Part shown: positions 5,836 through 47,692 of the stretch, piece by piece
Layout of the letters: the number at the start of each line of letters is the position of its first letter
How positions within the stretch are numbered: position 1 is the first letter of the stretch
Assembly (NCBI GenBank): GCA_017445425.1
Contig: JAFSUF010000051.1
Span: forward strand, 1 to 53,246
Reading direction: 5' to 3'
DNA length: 53,246 nt
From: Bacteroidales bacterium
GTDB lineage: Bacteria; Bacteroidota; Bacteroidia; Bacteroidales; UBA932
Made by a program: the position numbers and the translations under genes
The notes under the pieces: model-generated
What the model was told of the DNA's origin: nothing
Databases searched by the model: none
Seen by the model: the letters and a program-made list of their open reading frames with translations, nothing else

Positions 5836-6625
5836 CACCCTTCATACAGCCATTGAGGCAGCGGCGGCCGGCATTCCGGCCATCACCCTGGAAGAGATGG
5901 ACGGGGTCAAACTGCTCAACCGCATCGACTCCAAGTATCTGACCAACGAAGCCACCCTGCTTGAGGTTCTTGCAGACGCCAGGGCTGCGGGCTACCGCGC
6001 CCTGGAGGCAGATGGGGCGAAGGTCAGTCCGTACAATTCCATATATTATGATACGCCGGAGCTGGGCATGTTCCTTGCCCATCACAACCGCAGGCTGGTC
6101 AGGCAGAAGGTACGTACCAGAATGTATGTGAATTCGGGAGAGTCATTCCTGGAGATAAAGCGCAAGAACAACCACGGCCGCACCAAGAAAAAACGCATGG
6201 GCATCGCCTCCGGCGAGTTGATGGATTTTTCCTCGAACGCCGCTGCCTGTGAATATCTGGCGGGACATTCCTGGTTTACCATAGAGGATATCCAGCCGGT
6301 GCTGTCCACCTCATTCAGACGCATCACGCTGGTGAATCCTGCCAAGACCGAACGCCTGACGATAGATACCTCACTGATGTTCACAAACTACCGGACCGGG
6401 AAGAAGGCTTCGCTTGAGGATGCGGTTATCATTGAACTCAAACAAGACGGCCATGCAGCCAGCCAGATGAAGGGAATCCTGCTGAACCGCCGGGTAAAGC
6501 CGGTGCGTGTGAGCAAATACTGCATTGCTGTCACCCTTACTGACCCTGATGTAAAGAGCGGACGCTTCAAACTGAAAGTACGCACGATTGAAAAGACAAT
6601 TAATAAAAAAATCACCACAATATGA
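5828..6625 (+). CDS. VTC-domain protein, polyphosphate polymerase-like
   Basis: This is a 265-residue VTC domain protein. VTC domains form a tunnel lined with Arg and Lys; in yeast Vtc4 they polymerise ATP phosphate into polyphosphate. Basic and acidic motifs of the family are visible: NRIDSKYL (about 36-43), SIYYDTPE, VRQKVRTRMY and SFLEIKRKNNHGRTKKKR. There is no transmembrane segment, so it is cytoplasmic and probably docked to the DUF4956 protein encoded next. The start overlaps the preceding gene by 8 bp, and the stop overlaps the DUF4956 start (ATGA, 6622-6625). Bacterial members of this type have no firmly known product, so polyphosphate synthesis is inferred from the family. Confidence 0.85.
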   Translation: MNDTLHTAIEAAAAGIPAITLEEMDGVKLLNRIDSKYLTNEATLLEVLADARAAGYRALEADGAKVSPYNSIYYDTPELGMFLAHHNRRLVRQKVRTRMYVNSGESFLEIKRKNNHGRTKKKRMGIASGELMDFSSNAAACEYLAGHSWFTIEDIQPVLSTSFRRITLVNPAKTERLTIDTSLMFTNYRTGKKASLEDAVIIELKQDGHAASQMKGILLNRRVKPVRVSKYCIAVTLTDPDVKSGRFKLKVRTIEKTINKKITTI

Positions 6626-7389
6626 TTACAGCCCAAGATTTCGGCGACTATACGCTTGCCGATGACGCCATCATGGACGTCCAGACAATAACAGACGCGA
6701 TGATGACCACCACACAGTCCATCACGGAACTGGCCATCCGTTTCTTCCTCAACCTCGCGGTATGCTGGATTCTGGTACAGTTCTTCTATTACCGCAAGAG
6801 CCACCGGCGCGACTATTACTTCACCTTCATGGTCTTCTCTTCCGCAATGCTCATGCTCCTCTACATAATGGGGAACGTGGAGGTCGGCGTGGGCCTTACC
6901 CTTGGACTCTTCGCCATCTTCGGGGTCATCCGCTATCGTACGGAGACGGTGCCCATACGGGAGATGACATATCTGTTCGTCATAATCGCCCTGGCGGCCA
7001 TGAACGGCCTGGCGCCAGTTTACCGGCTGGTGGGGGCCACATCTTCCAATCCTCACTATGACCTCTCCTTGGGTACGGTTGGCATAATGGTTTTGTCCAA
7101 CGCCCTTGTCGTCTGCCTGATCTGGGTGCTGGAGAACGGCCGGCTGCTTAAGCACACATCTACAAAACTGGTGCTCTACGACCGCATCGACCTAATCGTT
7201 CCCGAGAAGCGGGAAGAACTCATCGCCGACCTTGAGAAACGCATAGGCATAAAGGTAATCAATCTGGAAGTGGGACATGTGGACTTCCTCAAAGACGCTG
7301 CCTTTATCAAGGTTTACTATAATCTGGACAAGGGGCAGAGCGGCTCCATCGATACCCTGACAAAAGCTAAGAACTTCGTAGAACAGTAG
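6622..7389 (+). CDS. DUF4956 integral membrane protein
   Basis: The 255-residue protein has about five hydrophobic segments between residues 32 and 170, including FFLNLAVCWILVQFF, LTLGLFAIFGVIRYR and MVLSNALVVCLIWVLE. The FGVIRYRTE segment between helices is characteristic of DUF4956. A soluble C-terminal domain of about 80 residues (YDRIDLIVPEKREELIADLE onward) follows. DUF4956 proteins are found next to VTC proteins in many phyla and probably form the membrane part of the same machine. The gene is translationally coupled to the VTC gene. Function beyond that association is unknown. Confidence 0.85.
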   Translation: MITAQDFGDYTLADDAIMDVQTITDAMMTTTQSITELAIRFFLNLAVCWILVQFFYYRKSHRRDYYFTFMVFSSAMLMLLYIMGNVEVGVGLTLGLFAIFGVIRYRTETVPIREMTYLFVIIALAAMNGLAPVYRLVGATSSNPHYDLSLGTVGIMVLSNALVVCLIWVLENGRLLKHTSTKLVLYDRIDLIVPEKREELIADLEKRIGIKVINLEVGHVDFLKDAAFIKVYYNLDKGQSGSIDTLTKAKNFVEQ

Positions 7390-8217: not shown

Positions 8218-9279
8218 ATGGACCATTTTTTAAGAAAAAAGCTGAAACTGTACGGCCTCTTCTGGGGGGCCGTAATGGTTGTCCCCTCCCTCCCCCTGCT
8301 ATGGGGTTCATTGGGGATTACAGGCCATTTCTCCTCGTTTGAGGAGATTGCTTCGCTCTGGCTTTCCATCCTCCCCATCCTGATTCTGTTTCTGGTTCAC
8401 AATTTCCTGATGCTGCCTCTCATCAAGCGGAACAAGACCTTGTATTTCATTGCAGTGATGGCCCTTATCGCGTTATTCGGCATTTACTGCTTTACGCTGG
8501 CAGACAAGCCGCCGGGGATGCACGACAAGATGCCGCCGACGGCATTTGACCCGCCAAGCCACCGGCCGGCCCGTCCGGCAGCGCTGATGCTGGGATTCGG
8601 AGTGCTGGCCTTAATCGCCAATTATGGCGCCGACGCCATCGTAGAGAACGAGCGGAAGGAGCAGGAACGCAGACTTCTGGAGATCGACAACCTCAGGTTG
8701 CAACTGGAAGCGCTCAGGTATCAGATCAACCCGCACTTCTTCCTCAATACGCTCAACAACATCCAGGCCCTGATCCTGATTGACCCGGACAAGGCGGCGG
8801 AGAGTATCGGAATATTCTCAAAAATGATGCAGATGATACTGCGCAACGGGAACGCCCCCCTGATCCCGCTCTCCGACGAGGTATGTTTCATTGACTACCT
8901 GGTGGCGCTGATGCGTCTGCGCTATACAGACAATGTCACACTGGAGACCCGACTGCCCGGGCAGACCGGCAATGCCGTCGTCCAGCCCATGATTCTGACT
9001 ACCTTTGTTGAGAATGCCTTTAAGCACGGAATCAGCTATAAGCACCCCTCGTCTGTCCGCGTCCAGATAGAACTTGCAGACGGGAAGATACATTTCCTTT
9101 GCGAAAACACGCTCCAGGCAGAGTCGCTCACGCAGGGATTCGGGATTGGCCTTGAGAACGCCCGCAAACGGCTCGCGATGCTTTACGGGGAGCGGTACCA
9201 GCTCAGCGCCAGATCCTCCGGAGAACTCTTCAGAGTGGAATTGACCATTCCGGACCAGATAGACATTTGTGAAGCATGA
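8218..9279 (+). CDS. LytS/YehU-type sensor histidine kinase
   Basis: The 353-residue kinase has four hydrophobic segments in its first 140 residues, with no large periplasmic domain. A short coiled-coil linker (ENERKEQERRLLEIDNLRLQ) leads to a His_kinase (PF06580) domain. The phospho-acceptor His is about residue 173 in NPHFFLNTLNNIQ. The ATP-binding N-box is FVENAFKHG (about 262-270), followed by the G-box GIGLENARKRL. It signals to the LytTR regulator, whose start overlaps its stop (ATGA, 9276-9279). The signal is not evident; the lack of an outer sensor domain suggests a membrane-borne or intramembrane signal. Confidence 0.9.
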   Translation: MDHFLRKKLKLYGLFWGAVMVVPSLPLLWGSLGITGHFSSFEEIASLWLSILPILILFLVHNFLMLPLIKRNKTLYFIAVMALIALFGIYCFTLADKPPGMHDKMPPTAFDPPSHRPARPAALMLGFGVLALIANYGADAIVENERKEQERRLLEIDNLRLQLEALRYQINPHFFLNTLNNIQALILIDPDKAAESIGIFSKMMQMILRNGNAPLIPLSDEVCFIDYLVALMRLRYTDNVTLETRLPGQTGNAVVQPMILTTFVENAFKHGISYKHPSSVRVQIELADGKIHFLCENTLQAESLTQGFGIGLENARKRLAMLYGERYQLSARSSGELFRVELTIPDQIDICEA

Positions 9280-17562: not shown

Positions 17563-17570
17563 TACATTTG
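17563..17570 (+). promoter_or_regulatory. Promoter -7 element for the PqqD cassette
   Basis: TACATTTG matches TAnnTTTG and ends 11 nt before the ATG at 17582, so the leader is only about 5 nt. This places the five-gene cassette under its own promoter. Confidence 0.6.
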
Positions 17571-17581
17571 CGTTTCATTGT

Positions 17582-18448
17582 ATGGCTGACCTCAGAACAT
17601 ATCGCGTAGCGGACTTCTTTTTTACCACAGAAGGCATCACAAACGAGCCGGCTAACCTGCAACCTTTCAGGGTGCAGGAGGCAGCCGGCGACATATTATT
17701 CTCTCTTGAAGTGGTTTCAAAATTGCCACAGGCTGCGCGCACTCTGCTTTACAAAACCCCTGATGAACCGGGTTTTCCGGTAATCGCCATTTTCACCACA
17801 GAAGACGGAGATTACCGCATAGAGACACAACCCCTTCCAGGCCGGCCTGTTGCAGGCGAAATGCAGGTAGATCCCGATTTTACCCGCGCCAGGCTGGAAC
17901 TCAAGTCCTCGCAGGACCGCTTTGCGATTGACAACTCCCTGATGTTCCTTTTCGCTTTCTCCTCAGCCTGCAAGAATACGCTGGAGATGCACTCCTCCGT
18001 AATCGTGAATGACGGCAAAGGCTACATGTTCCTGGGCAAGAGCGGCACCGGCAAGAGCACACACACCCGCTTGTGGCTTAACCATATACCCGGCAGCGTC
18101 CTGCTCAACGACGATAACCCTGTTGTCCGCATCGGAGATGATGGCACAGCCCGTGTGTACGGCAGCCCCTGGAGCGGCAAGGCCCCTTGCTATAAGGCTA
18201 TGGACGCCCCCGTCGGTGCAATAGTACAGCTGAGCCAGGCGCCGCATAACAGCATCAGCAAGCTTAACCCTATCCAGGCCTACGCAACGCTCATGGGGTC
18301 CTCATCGTCATTCCGCCCGCTCAGGAAACTTGCCGACGGCTGGCACAGCACCATGGAGACCCTCGCCTCCGGCACTCCGTTCTATCATCTTGAGTGCCTG
18401 CCAGATGAGGCTGCCGCCCAACTTTCATTCAAGACAATCCATGGATAA
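17582..18448 (+). CDS. HPr kinase-like P-loop protein (lasso-type kinase homologue)
   Basis: The product has 288 residues. The C-terminal half resembles HPr kinase/PEP carboxykinase folds: a His at MHSSV (about 137), Walker A GKSGTGKST (152-160), and the acidic pair LLNDDNPVV (177-178). SPWSGK and NPIQAYATLM segments follow. The N-terminal 110 residues are unassigned. In lasso-peptide clusters of the paeninodin type a homologous kinase phosphorylates the C-terminal Ser of the precursor. Here the gene opens a cassette with S26-like peptidase, PqqD and nucleotidyltransferase genes; kinase activity on a peptide or other carrier is inferred from that. HPr itself is an unlikely target. Confidence 0.75.
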   Translation: MADLRTYRVADFFFTTEGITNEPANLQPFRVQEAAGDILFSLEVVSKLPQAARTLLYKTPDEPGFPVIAIFTTEDGDYRIETQPLPGRPVAGEMQVDPDFTRARLELKSSQDRFAIDNSLMFLFAFSSACKNTLEMHSSVIVNDGKGYMFLGKSGTGKSTHTRLWLNHIPGSVLLNDDNPVVRIGDDGTARVYGSPWSGKAPCYKAMDAPVGAIVQLSQAPHNSISKLNPIQAYATLMGSSSSFRPLRKLADGWHSTMETLASGTPFYHLECLPDEAAAQLSFKTIHG

Positions 18449-18878
18449 AAAGGTCATCCCCAACGATATAATGCTGGCAGAGGTAGGAACCCTGCTGGAA
18501 GAAGGGCGTGACGTGAAGCTTACACCGCTGGGGAACAGTATGCTGCCATTCATTGTCGGAGGCAAAGACAGCGTAACACTTCGCAAACTGCCGGAAATAA
18601 AGATTGGAGACATTGTGCTGGCGCACCTGGCCGACACGCGCTACGTGTTGCACCGGGTGGTCGCGATAGACGGCGACAGACTCACCCTGATGGGGGACGG
18701 CAACCTGGTAGGCACAGAACCGTGCAAAAAGAGCGACATACTTGGCACGATAATCACCATAAACGGCCACAAGCCCGCAAAGGGGGTTATCTGGGGCAGA
18801 CTCAAACCCGCCAGAAGATACTTACTTGTATTTTACAGACACTTCAGACGATTAAAACGATTATTATATGAGAATTAA
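18441..18878 (+). CDS. S24/S26-like peptidase of the Ser-His (S26B) type
   Basis: The product has 145 residues from ATG 18441, which overlaps the kinase gene by 8 bp; longer in-frame starts lie deep inside that gene and are rejected. The Ser nucleophile is about residue 33 in LGNSMLPFI. Where bacterial LepB has Lys, this protein has His about 71 in VLHRVV, followed by GDGN (Asp about 86). That is the pattern of SipW/Sec11 (S26B) signal peptidases. No N-terminal membrane helix is present, so it is soluble or docked through its basic C terminus (RRYLLVFYRHFRRLKR). It may trim a leader peptide in the cytoplasm; inferred from context. Confidence 0.78.
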   Translation: MDKKVIPNDIMLAEVGTLLEEGRDVKLTPLGNSMLPFIVGGKDSVTLRKLPEIKIGDIVLAHLADTRYVLHRVVAIDGDRLTLMGDGNLVGTEPCKKSDILGTIITINGHKPAKGVIWGRLKPARRYLLVFYRHFRRLKRLLYEN

Positions 18879-19134
18879 AGAAGGATTCACTCTTCGCACC
18901 CTCTGCGGAAACCACATAGTAGTAGGCGAAGGCCTCACCCTGGTCAACTTTGACAAAATGCTCTCTCTCAACGAATCTGCCGCCTACCTTTGGGAGCAGG
19001 TTATCGGACGGGATTTCACGGAAGATGATCTCACCAATCTTTTAACCGAAAGGTATGAGGTCAGTGAAGAGCAGGCCCGCGAGGATGTCCGGAAAATGGT
19101 AGATATATGGCAGGAGAACGGCATGCTCGAATAA
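18868..19134 (+). CDS. PqqD-family protein (RiPP recognition element)
   Basis: This is an 88-residue PqqD-like protein. It begins FTLRTLCGNHIVVGEG, the beta-strand region, followed by LSLNESAAYLWEQV, which is the winged-helix core that in RiPP systems grips the leader peptide. The C-terminal helices follow (DDLTNLLTERYEV). It overlaps the peptidase gene by 11 bp and the nucleotidyltransferase gene by 28 bp. A paralogue of about half identical residues lies at 47423-47692 beside polysaccharide export genes. In lasso clusters a stand-alone PqqD (B1) brings the precursor to the B2 protease; neither precursor nor B2 is seen here. Confidence 0.85.
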   Translation: MRIKEGFTLRTLCGNHIVVGEGLTLVNFDKMLSLNESAAYLWEQVIGRDFTEDDLTNLLTERYEVSEEQAREDVRKMVDIWQENGMLE

Positions 19135-20237
19135 CCTCCGCCCAGGAGGAGTACCTGAGTCTGTTGCGTTCTGCCCTCTGGGGCACGCCGGCCATCCTCC
19201 CCATGGACCTTGACGGTGTACGGAAGACAGCCAGAACGCAGCGGACCCGGCCGATGATTATTTCTGCCCTGTTCAGTGCCGGGTGGCAGTGCGACAGCCC
19301 GCAGCCGATGGAGCTGGTGCACAAGACTGCCGCCACCCACATCCAGCTTAACCGCTGCATAGCCAAAGTGGTATCAGCACTTCGCGACGGCGGCGTGGAG
19401 CCTGTATTGCTCAAGGGGCAAGGCGTAGCCCGGAACTACCTTCAGCCTCTTCTCAGGGAGTGCGGCGACATTGACCTGTACGTAGGCCCCGATCAGTACG
19501 AAAGAGCCTGCGGGATAATAAACGGGATGGCCACCGGAGATGAGATTGCGCAAGCCCGAAGCTCAACCCTCCACTATGAAATCTTTCTGGGCAAGATGCT
19601 TATCGAGCTCCATCGGGTGAGCGACAAGATGAACGGCAAAAAAGCAGACGAGTTCTATCAGGCCCTTGCAGACGATGGTCTCAGCAACAACCTTGCACCG
19701 GTTGATATCGATGGAGTAACGGTAAACACCCCCTCCGACAACTTCAATGCATTCTATATCTTTTGCCACATGCAGCGCCACTTCCTGCTTGGAGGCATTG
19801 GATTGCGGCAGATGTGCGACTGGATACGTTTTCTTCACACCCGCGCCGGCAAGATTGATGACGCCTATCTTGAGAGAGCATTGGATACATTGCAACTGCG
19901 TAACGTATGGAAGATGTTCGCCTCGATTGCCGTTGACTATCTGGGACTGCCCGCAAATGAGATGCCTCTTTATCAGCCAGGCTTGAAAGAAGATGCCTCA
20001 GATGTGCTGGGCACTATCTTAATGGAGGGCAATTTTGGTCATTTCCGGTCTTTATCGGAAACCGATCGCCCCGATAATTATTTTGCAAGCAAGACGTACT
20101 CCATCAAAATCAAATTGGAACGATATCGTCTGCTCCTTAGCCTGTATCCGGGCAAGAAACGTTTCCTCAGAAAAAAAATCCGGAAATTTTACTGTGCAGG
20201 AGCAGTACAGGTAATTAAAGAAATATTCCATAAATGA
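19107..20237 (+). CDS. NTP_transf_5 nucleotidyltransferase-family protein
   Basis: The product has 376 residues. It shows the NTP_transf_5 (PF14907) motifs: PVLLKGQGVARNYL (about 99-112) and the metal-binding Asp pair in ECGDIDLYVG (Asp121, Asp123). Proteins of this family appear in lasso-peptide and related clusters. The ATG at 19107 overlaps the PqqD gene by 28 bp; no other ATG occurs before residue 33, which would cut conserved sequence, so the overlap is accepted. The last bases overlap the ABC transporter start (ATGA). It may add a nucleotide or sugar-nucleotide group to the substrate; not established. Confidence 0.8.
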   Translation: MAGERHARITSAQEEYLSLLRSALWGTPAILPMDLDGVRKTARTQRTRPMIISALFSAGWQCDSPQPMELVHKTAATHIQLNRCIAKVVSALRDGGVEPVLLKGQGVARNYLQPLLRECGDIDLYVGPDQYERACGIINGMATGDEIAQARSSTLHYEIFLGKMLIELHRVSDKMNGKKADEFYQALADDGLSNNLAPVDIDGVTVNTPSDNFNAFYIFCHMQRHFLLGGIGLRQMCDWIRFLHTRAGKIDDAYLERALDTLQLRNVWKMFASIAVDYLGLPANEMPLYQPGLKEDASDVLGTILMEGNFGHFRSLSETDRPDNYFASKTYSIKIKLERYRLLLSLYPGKKRFLRKKIRKFYCAGAVQVIKEIFHK

Positions 20238-21853
20238 GAAGTTTTGCCTCATGCATGAAGACCCTCTGGGCCATGTCTAAACCTGTCCGCTGGCGTTTGT
20301 GGATCAAAGTGGCGGCAGGCATTATCCGCATTGCGGCATCTCTGGGCTTCATAGCTGCCAGCAAACACCTTGTGGACATCGCCACCAAAGTGAGCGGCGC
20401 CTCTTTGAATCATGGCATAGCCATATTCATCGGAATACTCGTATTGCAACTGGCCCTCACAATTTTCAACAACTGGTGGGATGCCTGGTGCAAGGTCAAA
20501 TCGCAGAACATTCTCAGAAAAGAACTCTTCGGTCACGTTCTCAGCAGCCGGTGGTCCGGCCGTGAACGCTTCCTCTCCGGCGACACCGTCAACCGTCTGG
20601 AAGAGGATATCAGGGTCACCTCCGACCTGCTGACAGATAATATTCCAAATCTGCTCATAACCTCACTTCAGCTGATTGCCTCATCGGCTTATATGCTCAC
20701 GCTGGCCCCCAATCTGCTCTGGGTTCTGCTTATTCTCATGGCCGCGGCAGTTATAGGCTCCAAGATGTTCTTCCGCCAGTTGCGCGAGATAATGGCCCGC
20801 ATCCGAAACCGCGACAGTGAACTCCAGCAGCTTATGCAGGAGAGCCTGCAGCATCGCGTATTAGTCCTGACCCTGACAAAGGTAGAACGGGTGCTTGAAA
20901 AATTCGGCTGGATTCAGGCCGACGTGGAGAGCGAGACCCGTAAGAGACTCAATTACAATGCTATAGCCCGCGGTTTTATGCTGTTCGGATTCCAGGCGGG
21001 CCACGCTGTAGCCTTCCTATGGGGAATCTTCGGCATCTCTGCCGGCACTGTTACATACGGTATGATGACCGCATTCCTGCAGCTTGTTGGCCGCGTCCAG
21101 GGCCCGATTGCCTCCCTCAGCGGCCAGGTTCCTGCATTCATCCGCGCCCTGACCTCTATCGAGCGGCTGATGGATCTGGCAGAACTGGAAGAAGAGCCCC
21201 GGGGGGAAAACATTCACCTTCCCGGCGCACCTGAGGTCGTGGTTACCAACCTTACTTACGCCTATCCCGGCGCAGCCAGACCTGTGCTGAAGGATTTCTC
21301 ATGCAGGTTTGAAGGGGGTACGTTCTCAGTCATCTGCGGCCCTACAGGCATCGGCAAGAGCACTCTCATCAATCTGATATTAGGCCTATTAGAGCCCACC
21401 AAGGGGAGCGTAACAGTTGCCGGGCGACCGGCAGGCAGCGCCATCCGCTGCAACTTTATGTATGTGCCACAGGGAAATTCGCTGCTCAGCGGCACTATCC
21501 GCAGCAATCTGCTGATGGCGGCGCCGGAAGCTACAGAAGACCAGATTCAGGAGGTTCTCTCTCTGGCCATGTGTAATTTTGTCAACGACCTCCACGACGG
21601 TCTGGAGACCAGATGCGGAGAGATCGGAAGCGGTCTGAGCGAAGGTCAGGCGCAGCGTCTCGCCGTTGCCCGCGCCCTGCTCCACCCCGGCGGAGTCCTG
21701 ATTCTGGACGAATCGACCTCTGCGCTGGACGCCGCCACAGAATCGGCCCTGCTTAAAAACCTCCACGAACGCTACCACGGGGAGAAGACAATTATCTTTA
21801 TCTCCCACCGTGAGGCTGCCGTCAGATTTGCCGACTCCATTATATCGCTTTAG
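20234..21853 (+). CDS. ABC exporter, fused membrane and ATPase domains
   Basis: This 539-residue type I half-transporter has about six membrane helices in residues 20-300 and a nucleotide-binding domain from about 325. Walker A is GPTGIGKST, the signature is LSEGQ (LSGGQ variant) in GLSEGQAQRLAVARALL, Walker B is VLILDESTSALD, and the H-loop is ISHRE. There is no N-terminal C39 peptidase domain, so any leader would be cut by another enzyme, for which the S26-like protein in the same cassette is a candidate. It is translationally coupled to the nucleotidyltransferase gene. The cargo is unknown; a modified peptide or lipid-linked compound is likely. Confidence 0.88.
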   Translation: MRSFASCMKTLWAMSKPVRWRLWIKVAAGIIRIAASLGFIAASKHLVDIATKVSGASLNHGIAIFIGILVLQLALTIFNNWWDAWCKVKSQNILRKELFGHVLSSRWSGRERFLSGDTVNRLEEDIRVTSDLLTDNIPNLLITSLQLIASSAYMLTLAPNLLWVLLILMAAAVIGSKMFFRQLREIMARIRNRDSELQQLMQESLQHRVLVLTLTKVERVLEKFGWIQADVESETRKRLNYNAIARGFMLFGFQAGHAVAFLWGIFGISAGTVTYGMMTAFLQLVGRVQGPIASLSGQVPAFIRALTSIERLMDLAELEEEPRGENIHLPGAPEVVVTNLTYAYPGAARPVLKDFSCRFEGGTFSVICGPTGIGKSTLINLILGLLEPTKGSVTVAGRPAGSAIRCNFMYVPQGNSLLSGTIRSNLLMAAPEATEDQIQEVLSLAMCNFVNDLHDGLETRCGEIGSGLSEGQAQRLAVARALLHPGGVLILDESTSALDAATESALLKNLHERYHGEKTIIFISHREAAVRFADSIISL

Positions 21854-21866
21854 ACTACTGAGCATT

Positions 21867-23195
21867 ATGAAACTAAGACATACTATGTATGCCGTAGCGC
21901 TAGCCTCAGTCGGGTTGGCTGCTCTCACCATCTCTCCTGCTATTATAGCTCAGGAGAAAGCCCCTGAAAACCATCTGATTGCCGACATTCAGATGTTCAA
22001 CCGCGGAGAGAACCGCGACGGCGGACTGCCTGATGCGGAGGACGTTAATTCAGACAGGGCCGCCTTTATCTTTGGCCGCGCTAGGATGTCCATTGCCTAC
22101 CAGAGACCCGGACTGGAGGTGCGTACATCCTTCCAGCATCAGGGGATATGGGGCCAGGCCGGCAAGGGCTCCTTCAGCATACACGAAGCCTGGGCAAAAC
22201 TCAACACCCGCAGCGGATTGTTCTTACAGGTAGGGCGAATGGTGCTGGCCTACGATGACGAGCGTATCCTGGGGCCCAACGACTGGTCTATGGCCGGCAT
22301 CACCCACGATGTACTCAAGGGTGGATACGAGGGCCACGGCCACAAGGTCCATACGATATGGGCATACAATCAGAATGCAGAAAACACTATTACCGGCAGC
22401 ACATACTATGCAGACGGCGCCCTTCCGTATAAGACAATGCAAATGCTCTGGTATCATTATGACCTGCCGGTCGCACCGCTTGGCGTATCACTGCTGGGGC
22501 TCAATATCGGAATGCAGGCCGGCTTCCCGGGAGAAGACGAACATGTCGCCTGGCAGCAGGTTGTGGGGGGATATTTCAAGTTCCATCCAGACAGATGGTC
22601 TGTGGAAGGGTCTTACTACAAACAAATGGGCATCAACGAAAATAATGTTCGCCTGGATGCCTGGATGGCCAGCTTCAAGGCTAAATTCACCCCGGCTCCA
22701 GTATGGACCTTCTACGCGGGTTACGACTTCCTCAGCGGCGACGAAACGTTTGCCGTACCCAAGCCCGGAAGCATAGGCCTCACCCACCACGAAGTACTGC
22801 GTGGTTTCAATCCAATTTACGGTTCGCACCACAAGTTTTACGGAGCGATGGACTTCTTCTATGTAAGTACATACGTGAACGGTTTCACTCCGGGCCTGCA
22901 GAATGCGTTTGCTGGCACCACCATCAAACCGATACCCAATCTTTCCGCAGATTTCTCTTACCACTACCTTGCAATCGCCGCAAAGCTTCAGAATATCGGC
23001 CCTACACTCGGGCACGAGTTTGAGATGGAGGCATCCTGGCAATTTACAAAATATGCGTCTGTGTCCTGCGGAGTATCCTATATGTTCGGCACAGAGAATA
23101 TGCAACGGCTCAAGCGCGCATCGCAAGACGGTCGCCTGTTCTGGTCCTGGCTGTCACTGGCGCTGACACCAAGGATTCTTAACCACAGCTGGTAA
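21867..23195 (+). CDS. Outer-membrane porin-like beta-barrel protein
   Basis: The product has 442 residues from ATG 21867, which yields a signal peptide (YAVALASVGLAALTISPAIIAQ). An upstream in-frame ATG at 21810 lies inside the ABC gene and gives no signal. The mature protein is a run of amphipathic strands such as LFLQVGRMVLAYDDERILG, YKTMQMLWYHYDLPV and VWTFYAGYDFLSGDE. The DDERILG and SGDE segments recall the alginate-export/porin superfamily. It starts 13 nt after the ABC exporter, so it may be the outer-membrane exit or uptake pore of the same system. Confidence 0.72.
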   Translation: MKLRHTMYAVALASVGLAALTISPAIIAQEKAPENHLIADIQMFNRGENRDGGLPDAEDVNSDRAAFIFGRARMSIAYQRPGLEVRTSFQHQGIWGQAGKGSFSIHEAWAKLNTRSGLFLQVGRMVLAYDDERILGPNDWSMAGITHDVLKGGYEGHGHKVHTIWAYNQNAENTITGSTYYADGALPYKTMQMLWYHYDLPVAPLGVSLLGLNIGMQAGFPGEDEHVAWQQVVGGYFKFHPDRWSVEGSYYKQMGINENNVRLDAWMASFKAKFTPAPVWTFYAGYDFLSGDETFAVPKPGSIGLTHHEVLRGFNPIYGSHHKFYGAMDFFYVSTYVNGFTPGLQNAFAGTTIKPIPNLSADFSYHYLAIAAKLQNIGPTLGHEFEMEASWQFTKYASVSCGVSYMFGTENMQRLKRASQDGRLFWSWLSLALTPRILNHSW

Positions 23196-47422: not shown

Positions 47423-47692
47423 TTACGGCAGCAGGACCCCCTGCTCTATCCATGTCCTGGCTATTTTTTCTGAATCTGAGATGGCCAACCCGCGATCTAC
47501 CCCATATTTTTGCACAATCAGGTCCGCAAGGTCCTCTGTGGAGAAGTCTTTTCCCTGAACGCTCTCCCACAGATACGCCGCAGTGGCGTTGAGCGAGAGC
47601 AGGCTATTGAAATTCACCTGCGCAAGCCCTTCACCCACAACCACATGCCCCCCGAGCATCGACCTCAATACAAAACCATCCTTTATCCTCAT
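47423..47692 (-). CDS. PqqD-family protein, second copy
   Basis: This 89-residue protein is a close paralogue of the one at 18868-19134: both begin MRIK-G-F-LR, share HVVVGEG or HIVVGEG and have LSLN--AAYLWE at the same positions; about half the residues agree by eye. It has the PqqD winged-helix fold that binds peptides in RiPP systems. Here it lies 30 nt before a Wza-like gene, with no modifying enzyme beside it. It may serve the same unknown substrate as the cassette at 17.6-21.9 kb, or may have been recruited to polysaccharide export. Confidence 0.83.
   Translation of the reverse strand: MRIKDGFVLRSMLGGHVVVGEGLAQVNFNSLLSLNATAAYLWESVQGKDFSTEDLADLIVQKYGVDRGLAISDSEKIARTWIEQGVLLP

Follow-up and report, generated by a model that had tools for sequence, protein, structure and literature searches.

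The linear polyphosphorylated peptides (LPPs) of Bacillota, described by Popov et al. in May 2026 (PMC13381572), are made by gene clusters with the same five functions as a cassette that we analyzed in a Bacteroidales bacterium, at positions 17582-21853 of contig JAFSUF010000051.1 (assembly GCA_017445425.1). The whole stretch of 53,246 nucleotides, referred to below as the window, is the entire contig C18 of a draft genome of 1.83 Mb in 97 contigs. We consider it likely that the five genes form an LPP-type maturation and export cassette for ribosomally synthesized and post-translationally modified peptides (RiPPs), which acts in trans on scattered peptides encoded in peptide-lipoprotein pairs.

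According to the LPP paper (PMC13381572), the Bacillota clusters combine an SpI-like peptidase (LppS, catalytic residues S29/H68/D93), a RiPP recognition element (RRE, LppB), an HprK-like kinase (LppK), a nucleoside triphosphate (NTP) transferase (LppN) and an MsbA-like exporter (LppD) with one to three precursors, and are frequently located inside capsule loci. The leader, YxxPxVLxHQxIxFETxxS, contains the YxxP motif bound by the RRE and is cut after Thr-1 by the peptidase in an RRE-dependent manner, and Ser3 of the core is polyphosphorylated in a kinase-dependent manner. LPPs are stated there to be restricted to Bacillota, and the string "bacteroid" is absent from the main text; of the peptidase matches "most", not all, are assigned to Bacillota.

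The second related group is that of the paeninodin-type lasso peptide clusters, which share with the cassette an HprK-like kinase with a His-Lys-Asp-Asp residue set (described for lasso kinases in PMC9266682), a PqqD-type B1 protein, a nucleotidyltransferase and an ABC exporter. The aromatic-xxP leader is also alike, YxxP being the motif bound by lasso RREs (PMC12710340), and the lasso enzyme PsmN attaches hexoses to phosphorylated Ser, perhaps by way of nucleotidylation (PMC9266682). In contrast to these clusters, the cassette has no linked macrolactam cyclase and no B2 cysteine protease, and an S26B-type peptidase stands in place of the latter. In NCBIfam, the SynChlorMet cassettes (ScmC/ScmD) and the HPr-rel-A cassettes also have an HprK-related protein in common with it, but the window proteins are far under the cut-offs of these models. 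ScmD belongs to the relatives of PqqD, which are present in both kinds of cassette.

The five-gene cassette of the window

All five genes are located on the forward strand, and successive genes overlap by 8, 11, 28 and 4 bp, as an initial annotation made from the sequence alone had indicated (five genes overlapping by 4-28 bp):

17582..18448, forward strand: HprK/PadeK/LppK-like kinase, named from motifs; ScmC and HprK_rel_A matches below cut-off
18441..18878, forward strand, ATG at 18441: S26B-type (archaeal-type signal peptidase-like) leader peptidase, Ser33/His71, named from motifs
18868..19134, forward strand: PqqD-family discrete RRE (PF05402, 2.8e-17)
19107..20237, forward strand: NTP_transf_5 nucleotidyltransferase, putative tailoring enzyme, LppN/PsmN-like (PF14907, 4e-33)
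20234..21853, forward strand: MsbA-like ABC exporter (ABC_membrane and ABC_tran above the Pfam cut-off)

The S24/S26 peptidase and kinase matches in Pfam are below cut-off, and both names rest on motifs; the alignments nevertheless uphold the HPr-kinase-like and S26B-like names of the initial annotation. The kinase residues H137, K158, D177 and D178 are unchanged in 11 of 11 aligned kinases, and we read them as the His-Lys-Asp-Asp set of lasso kinases. The peptidase motif SMxP with S33, together with H71, is unchanged in 9/9 members of a closer set and likewise in 9/9 of a broader one extending to a Bacillota plasmid; across this broader set the Asp (D99) is not conserved. The best solved-structure match of the cassette PqqD is TfuB1, a lasso B1 protein; a PDB search aimed at a solved LPP RRE returned TfuB1, TbiB1 and one unrelated chain. 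Domain searches of the window protein gave no match to a peptidase domain in the ABC exporter.

Compared with the LPP clusters, the window contains an S26 protease with Ser and His, a PqqD RRE, a His-Lys-Asp-Asp kinase, an NTP transferase and an MsbA-like exporter, and neither a macrolactam cyclase nor B2 within the cassette; a YxxP leader and an acceptor Ser near the core start are predicted to be common to both systems. Differences are the Bacteroidota host, the lack of a cis precursor in the window, where several dispersed candidates were found instead, and the frequent pairing of precursors with lipoprotein genes. Moreover, the leaders associated with the cassette are missing the full HQxIxFET, and their Ser/Thr peak is at Y+19/20, as against Y+18 by our count from the published motif. 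Because no precursor ORF (open reading frame) was found inside the cluster, the six candidates being on other contigs, and because the leader agrees with the published motif only in part, we regard the cassette as a variant that would work like an LPP system rather than as an ordinary member. What is new here is the occurrence in Bacteroidota, the dispersal of the substrates and their pairing with lipoproteins; searches of the open-licence PMC literature gave no recognised description of such a layout in Bacteroidota.

A locus on the Butyrivibrio fibrisolvens plasmid pNP243 (NZ_CP146964.1, L298) appears to be an LPP-type cluster of a rumen Bacillota. A single run of genes there holds two ABC genes, the kinase, PqqD and the S24/S26 peptidase, and a YxxP peptide (57 amino acids, MKKAYVKPEL..., Cys/Pro-rich, positions 6621-6794) is encoded between kinase and PqqD. 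It differs from the window in its Bacillota host, the precursor in cis and two ABC genes, and its kinase is 30% identical over 158 residues and its PqqD 22%.

Conservation of the gene set

Within the genus, these five genes recur in unchanged order in five loci (L040, L043, L045, L048, L052), with the cassette in two pieces in L068/L070 and the NTP_transf_5 gene (NTP5) inverted in L049, and the cassette is also present in the more distant L055, L057, L096, L100 and L102. This recurring gene order suggests that the cassette is more than a chance arrangement. Scanning the named genomes of GTDB with the kinase gave at least 558 confirmed relatives, and the best 80 of these were analyzed; all 80 are Bacteroidales or Bacteroidia according to the record title, many being rumen or gut organisms, and some duplicate contigs of other samples (e.g. 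L200/L201 versus L040/L052). Using local profiles, S26 was detected anywhere in the locus in 80/80, PqqD in 76/80, ABC in 62/80 and NTP5 in 14/80; for the 56 loci flanked by 5 kb or more on each side, the counts at up to 6 kb from the kinase were 56, 54, 43 and 9, respectively. As only 14/80 and 9/56 loci carry NTP5, it is an optional cassette part, although both counts are lower bounds owing to the local profile. With this linkage, and with the gene set published for Bacillota, the term "orphan" used in the initial annotation does not hold. Segatella baroniae B14, a cultured organism, has NTP5, kinase, S26 and PqqD together (L278).

NTP_transf_5 genes were also observed apart from the cassette (L033, L034, L036, L037, L041, L042, L046, L047, L050), the highest number in one genome being six matches in G025 when copies inside cassettes are counted, and the stray genes sit amid genes of polysaccharide-cluster-like sizes, as judged by size only. 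In L061 (9825-10295) and L063 (8939-9361), a PqqD-matching small protein with a C-terminal tail motif "ADPIHEV...EGW" adjoins NTP5 and kinase relatives, followed in L061 by a GT2 glycosyltransferase; this arrangement is perhaps another type of peptide-modifying cassette.

YxxP peptides and their lipoprotein neighbours

In seven of the 12 distant loci inspected (L116-L119, L122, L126, L127), an ORF of 52-74 amino acids with a YxxP motif was found 5' of the kinase, behind PqqD wherever PqqD was called, and followed by kinase, S26 and often ABC. The seven cis peptides share the pattern ..K.Y.kP..EvI.ID..ISLiM.S, continued by an acidic Gly/Pro-rich tail. The neighbourhood comparison and the search for a co-occurring short ORF, both proposed in the initial annotation, thus yielded a strongly conserved linkage and a YxxP ORF. 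A YxxP regular expression was of no use, with 234 real matches and 271, 283 and 291 in shuffled sequences, and profiles were therefore used. The first profile, built from 19 peptides including the seven cis ones, retrieved from 13,843 small ORFs the seven cis peptides and five further members with E <1e-3, the background having E >1. Known families above cut-off were found neither for 10 peptides in NCBIfam nor for eight in Pfam.

In an alignment of 63 members, among which near-duplicates and doubtful peptides (L150) were retained, YxxP is present in all, the inclusion script having demanded [YF]xxP. The residue at Y+6 is Glu in 41, and Ser/Thr occurs inside Y+19..+22 in 60, compared with 7 to 43 of the 63 for non-overlapping four-residue segments between Y+4 and Y+33. 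From Y+19 onward, 57 of the 63 are net acidic.

The peptides co-occur with the kinase. Among 393 genomes of the order, the peptide (E<=1e-3) was found in 37/58 kinase-positive and 7/335 kinase-negative genomes, and in 23/44 and 7/335 when the 14 training genomes were excluded (p = 7e-19). At the genus level it is present in 29/42 kinase-positive genera versus 4/165 others (17/30 versus 4/165 without the 12 training genera). Among 60 relatives, a sample that overlaps with the first, the counts at E<=0.01 were 19/24 versus 1/36, and 10/15 versus 1/36 without the nine training genomes. The kinase limit of E<=1e-10 was fixed beforehand for the 393 genomes and applied afterwards to the 60 relatives, so that three weak kinase matches (G037, G038, G051) were counted as negative there, and both peptide limits were picked after the lists had been viewed. 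In the 393-genome scan, at most six kinase candidates per genome were scored at first pass, and some kinases were possibly missed.

A second profile, whose training peptides came from kinase-positive and kinase-negative groups alike, was applied to 15 of 18 kinase-positive and six of eight kinase-negative genus members, six kinase-negative family members and nine named-locus genomes. At E<=0.1, the 15 kinase-positive genus members carry 1-12 peptides (mean 5.5), the 12 kinase-negative genus and family genomes 0-2 (mean 0.4), and the nine named-locus genomes 0-18; Segatella baroniae B14 has three matches, one with an internal stop.

In the window itself, no small ORF matched the first profile better than E 8, and the second profile found no peptide on the cassette contig, consistent with the initial annotation, which had seen no precursor in the cassette. 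It had also proposed that the precursor might be encoded elsewhere, which is probably correct, and had suggested a look for a leader motif shared among small ORFs genome-wide. The second profile detected six candidates on six other contigs of the same genome:

C59:12964-13179, reverse strand: candidate peptide; lipoprotein downstream (by rule and by eye)
C96:21484-21618, reverse strand: candidate peptide; lipoprotein downstream (by eye)
C15:32221-32349, forward strand: candidate peptide; the contig ends soon behind it
C30, about 8413-8547, reverse strand: candidate peptide; lipoprotein downstream (by eye)
C17, about 19209-19346, forward strand: candidate peptide; lipoprotein downstream (by eye)
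C25:569-712, forward strand: candidate peptide; lipoprotein downstream (by eye)

In 5/5 candidates with downstream sequence, the next gene lies on the same strand and has, as judged by eye, a lipoprotein signal. Peptides of two genomes that both have a window-type cassette (G006 and G025) share 57-62% identity with the C59 peptide. The precursors of the window cassette are very probably located elsewhere in the genome.

The pairing with lipoproteins is frequent. For 50 of the 63 members, a same-strand ORF of at least 100 amino acids (or open-ended) starts within 120 bp downstream; 33 of these 50 ORFs have a lipobox, versus 92/1056 when random small ORFs from the same loci are taken instead, and 63/973 for all genes. 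Nine of the other 17 are the kinase, and the downstream proteins of L128, L129, L130 and L201, in which a lipobox-like Cys is visible, were missed by the rule and scored negative. The paired lipoproteins are diverse: among nine searched in Pfam, one has Big_2 and another an InlB-type repeat (both above cut-off), three have matches below cut-off, one of these being fimbrillin-like, and four have none. Fimbrillin-like lipoproteins were rejected as the direct substrate and retained solely as partners. Cassette, peptide and lipoprotein are found in one locus in 7/80 named loci (L227, L235, L238, L246, L249, L256, L259), which join the cis-precursor and peptide-lipoprotein arrangements.

Regarding further features of the window, one putative promoter and a second PqqD gene should be mentioned:

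17563..17571, forward strand: Bacteroidales-type -7 box TACATTTGC, putative promoter, 10 bp 5' of the kinase start codon

The box fits the Bacteroidales -7 consensus; TAnnTTTGY-type boxes occur 21 times in the window versus 9.9 expected from shuffles. Because it is only 10 bp from the start codon and the upstream gene ends 28 bp before it, read-through from that gene is also possible. Some other boxes of the window are only 10-20 bp 5' of start codons, so that transcripts with very short leaders may be common in this genome. A second, lone PqqD gene is located about 28 kb away (47423-47692, reverse strand), 51% identical to the cassette PqqD; it has a separate -7 box (47719-47711) and, as judged by eye, an AMP-forming ligase-like gene and a Wza-type export protein gene as neighbours; in G006 a second PqqD is likewise about 26 kb from its cassette. 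A porin-like gene downstream of the cassette (21867-23195) was rejected as cargo; its Alginate_exp match is below cut-off and it was found in only three sources, the window included.

Proposed mechanism and competing explanations

By analogy with the Bacillota LPP system and its homologues, we infer the following sequence of events. PqqD, as RRE, would bind the YxxP leader of short precursors encoded at several sites of the genome, the HprK-like kinase would phosphorylate a Ser/Thr at the core start, about 19-22 residues past the Tyr, and the S26B-type peptidase, docked via PqqD, would remove the leader near that Ser/Thr. NTP_transf_5 may attach a further group, a hexose or a nucleotide, to the phosphate, and the ABC protein would export the acidic linear product. 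What the sequences themselves show is the gene set with its motifs and conserved linkage, the peptide family, its co-occurrence with the kinase and its pairing with lipoprotein genes. The initial annotation had considered PqqD as a carrier that is itself modified; we found no evidence for this, and an adaptor binding the YxxP leader is simpler and experimentally shown for the Bacillota counterpart (PMC13381572).

Several points weigh against this interpretation. The support for the Bacteroidales members comes from sequence and homologues, and shared ancestry inflates every p value. A peptide near the cassette (E<1e-2) was found in just 11/80 named loci and NTP_transf_5, as counted above, in just 14 (a lower bound); for five of the six candidates from the genome of the window, E ranges from 1e-4 to 0.04, and the leader profile is short. 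The Bacillota leader is matched in its hydrophobic spacing and its Ser/Thr, but HQ and FET are not general. Ser is also frequent at Y+15 (19/63), which accounts for the maximum of 43 among the other segments, and the Ser/Thr is located 1-4 residues further than in the Bacillota motif, so that its role as acceptor is putative. Ten of the 58 kinase-positive genomes have no peptide at E<=0.1. Conversely, four genomes (G021, which is 99% complete, G018, G008 and G012) have one or two peptides without kinase or PqqD, and PqqD is missing in 4/7 kinase-negative peptide-bearing genomes of the order sample (G158, G200, G326, G333); the remaining three have PqqD, and in G269 a peptide adjoins it.

An unlikely alternative, and the best of those considered, is that the substrate is non-ribosomal or a polysaccharide, as in the decoration or export of capsule or exopolysaccharide, and that the YxxP peptides merely share the phylogenetic range of the cassette. 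The extra NTP_transf_5 copies amid glycosyltransferase-sized genes (GT2 confirmed in L061) and the capsule loci that often house Bacillota LPP clusters (PMC13381572) would fit it, whereas distant members have the peptide ORFs within their run of cassette genes, the seven combined loci have them next to the cassette and ahead of lipoproteins, the co-occurrence of kinase and peptide holds at the genus level, and PqqD-family RREs bind peptides (PMC13381572). That the YxxP ORFs are regulatory leader ORFs of the lipoprotein genes, not secreted, with PqqD or the kinase acting on them in a signalling step, seems to us improbable: they mostly lie 0-70 bp 5' of a larger same-strand gene, as regulatory upstream ORFs would, but leader residues and the Ser/Thr after the hydrophobic patch are conserved at the amino-acid level, and in distant loci it is the kinase, S26 and often ABC that follow directly. 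Least credible is decay or splitting of a paeninodin-type lasso cluster, with its cyclase and B2 protease lost or elsewhere, as might be suggested by the four shared components and by a weak match of the L116 peptide to the PadeA precursor family (E 0.042, below cut-off), given that B2 (Transglut_core3) was found in 0/14 draft genomes, the window's included, 13 of which have a kinase match, that Asn_synthase (cyclase family) matches exist but none on the cassette contig in 11 genomes, that a 652-amino-acid neighbour in L061 suspected as cyclase has GT2 domains and turned out to be a glycosyltransferase, and that S26 accompanies the kinase in 80/80 loci, which argues for a stable set. Accordingly, the view of the initial annotation that a RiPP-like maturation and export set without cyclase has an S26B-type peptidase replacing the lasso protease stands, and neither of the outcomes it had considered adverse, a lasso cyclase and protease merely lost here or a lack of five-gene linkage in other genomes, was encountered.

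For the LPP-type cassette acting in trans, we tentatively propose a further step, quite possibly correct: one central workshop may serve genome-wide peptides, each with its own lipoprotein, to which the exported phosphorylated or glycosylated peptide would be dedicated as ligand, cap or tag. Joint action of the product and the surface lipoprotein paired with it is conjecture, and the lipoprotein partner is at the same time a concrete lead on the role of phosphorylated peptides. The LPP class, confined to Bacillota in its 2026 description, would extend to a wide range of Bacteroidales, with the layout of one cluster and one precursor replaced by a hub with dispersed substrates, and a family of uncharacterised small ORFs would be tied both to surface lipoproteins and to an apparatus for maturation. 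If this is true, a large family of "MKKxYxxPxxEv" small proteins, with up to 18 matches per genome (E<=0.1), would gain a function, and a trans-acting, many-substrate RiPP class would exist outside Bacillota.

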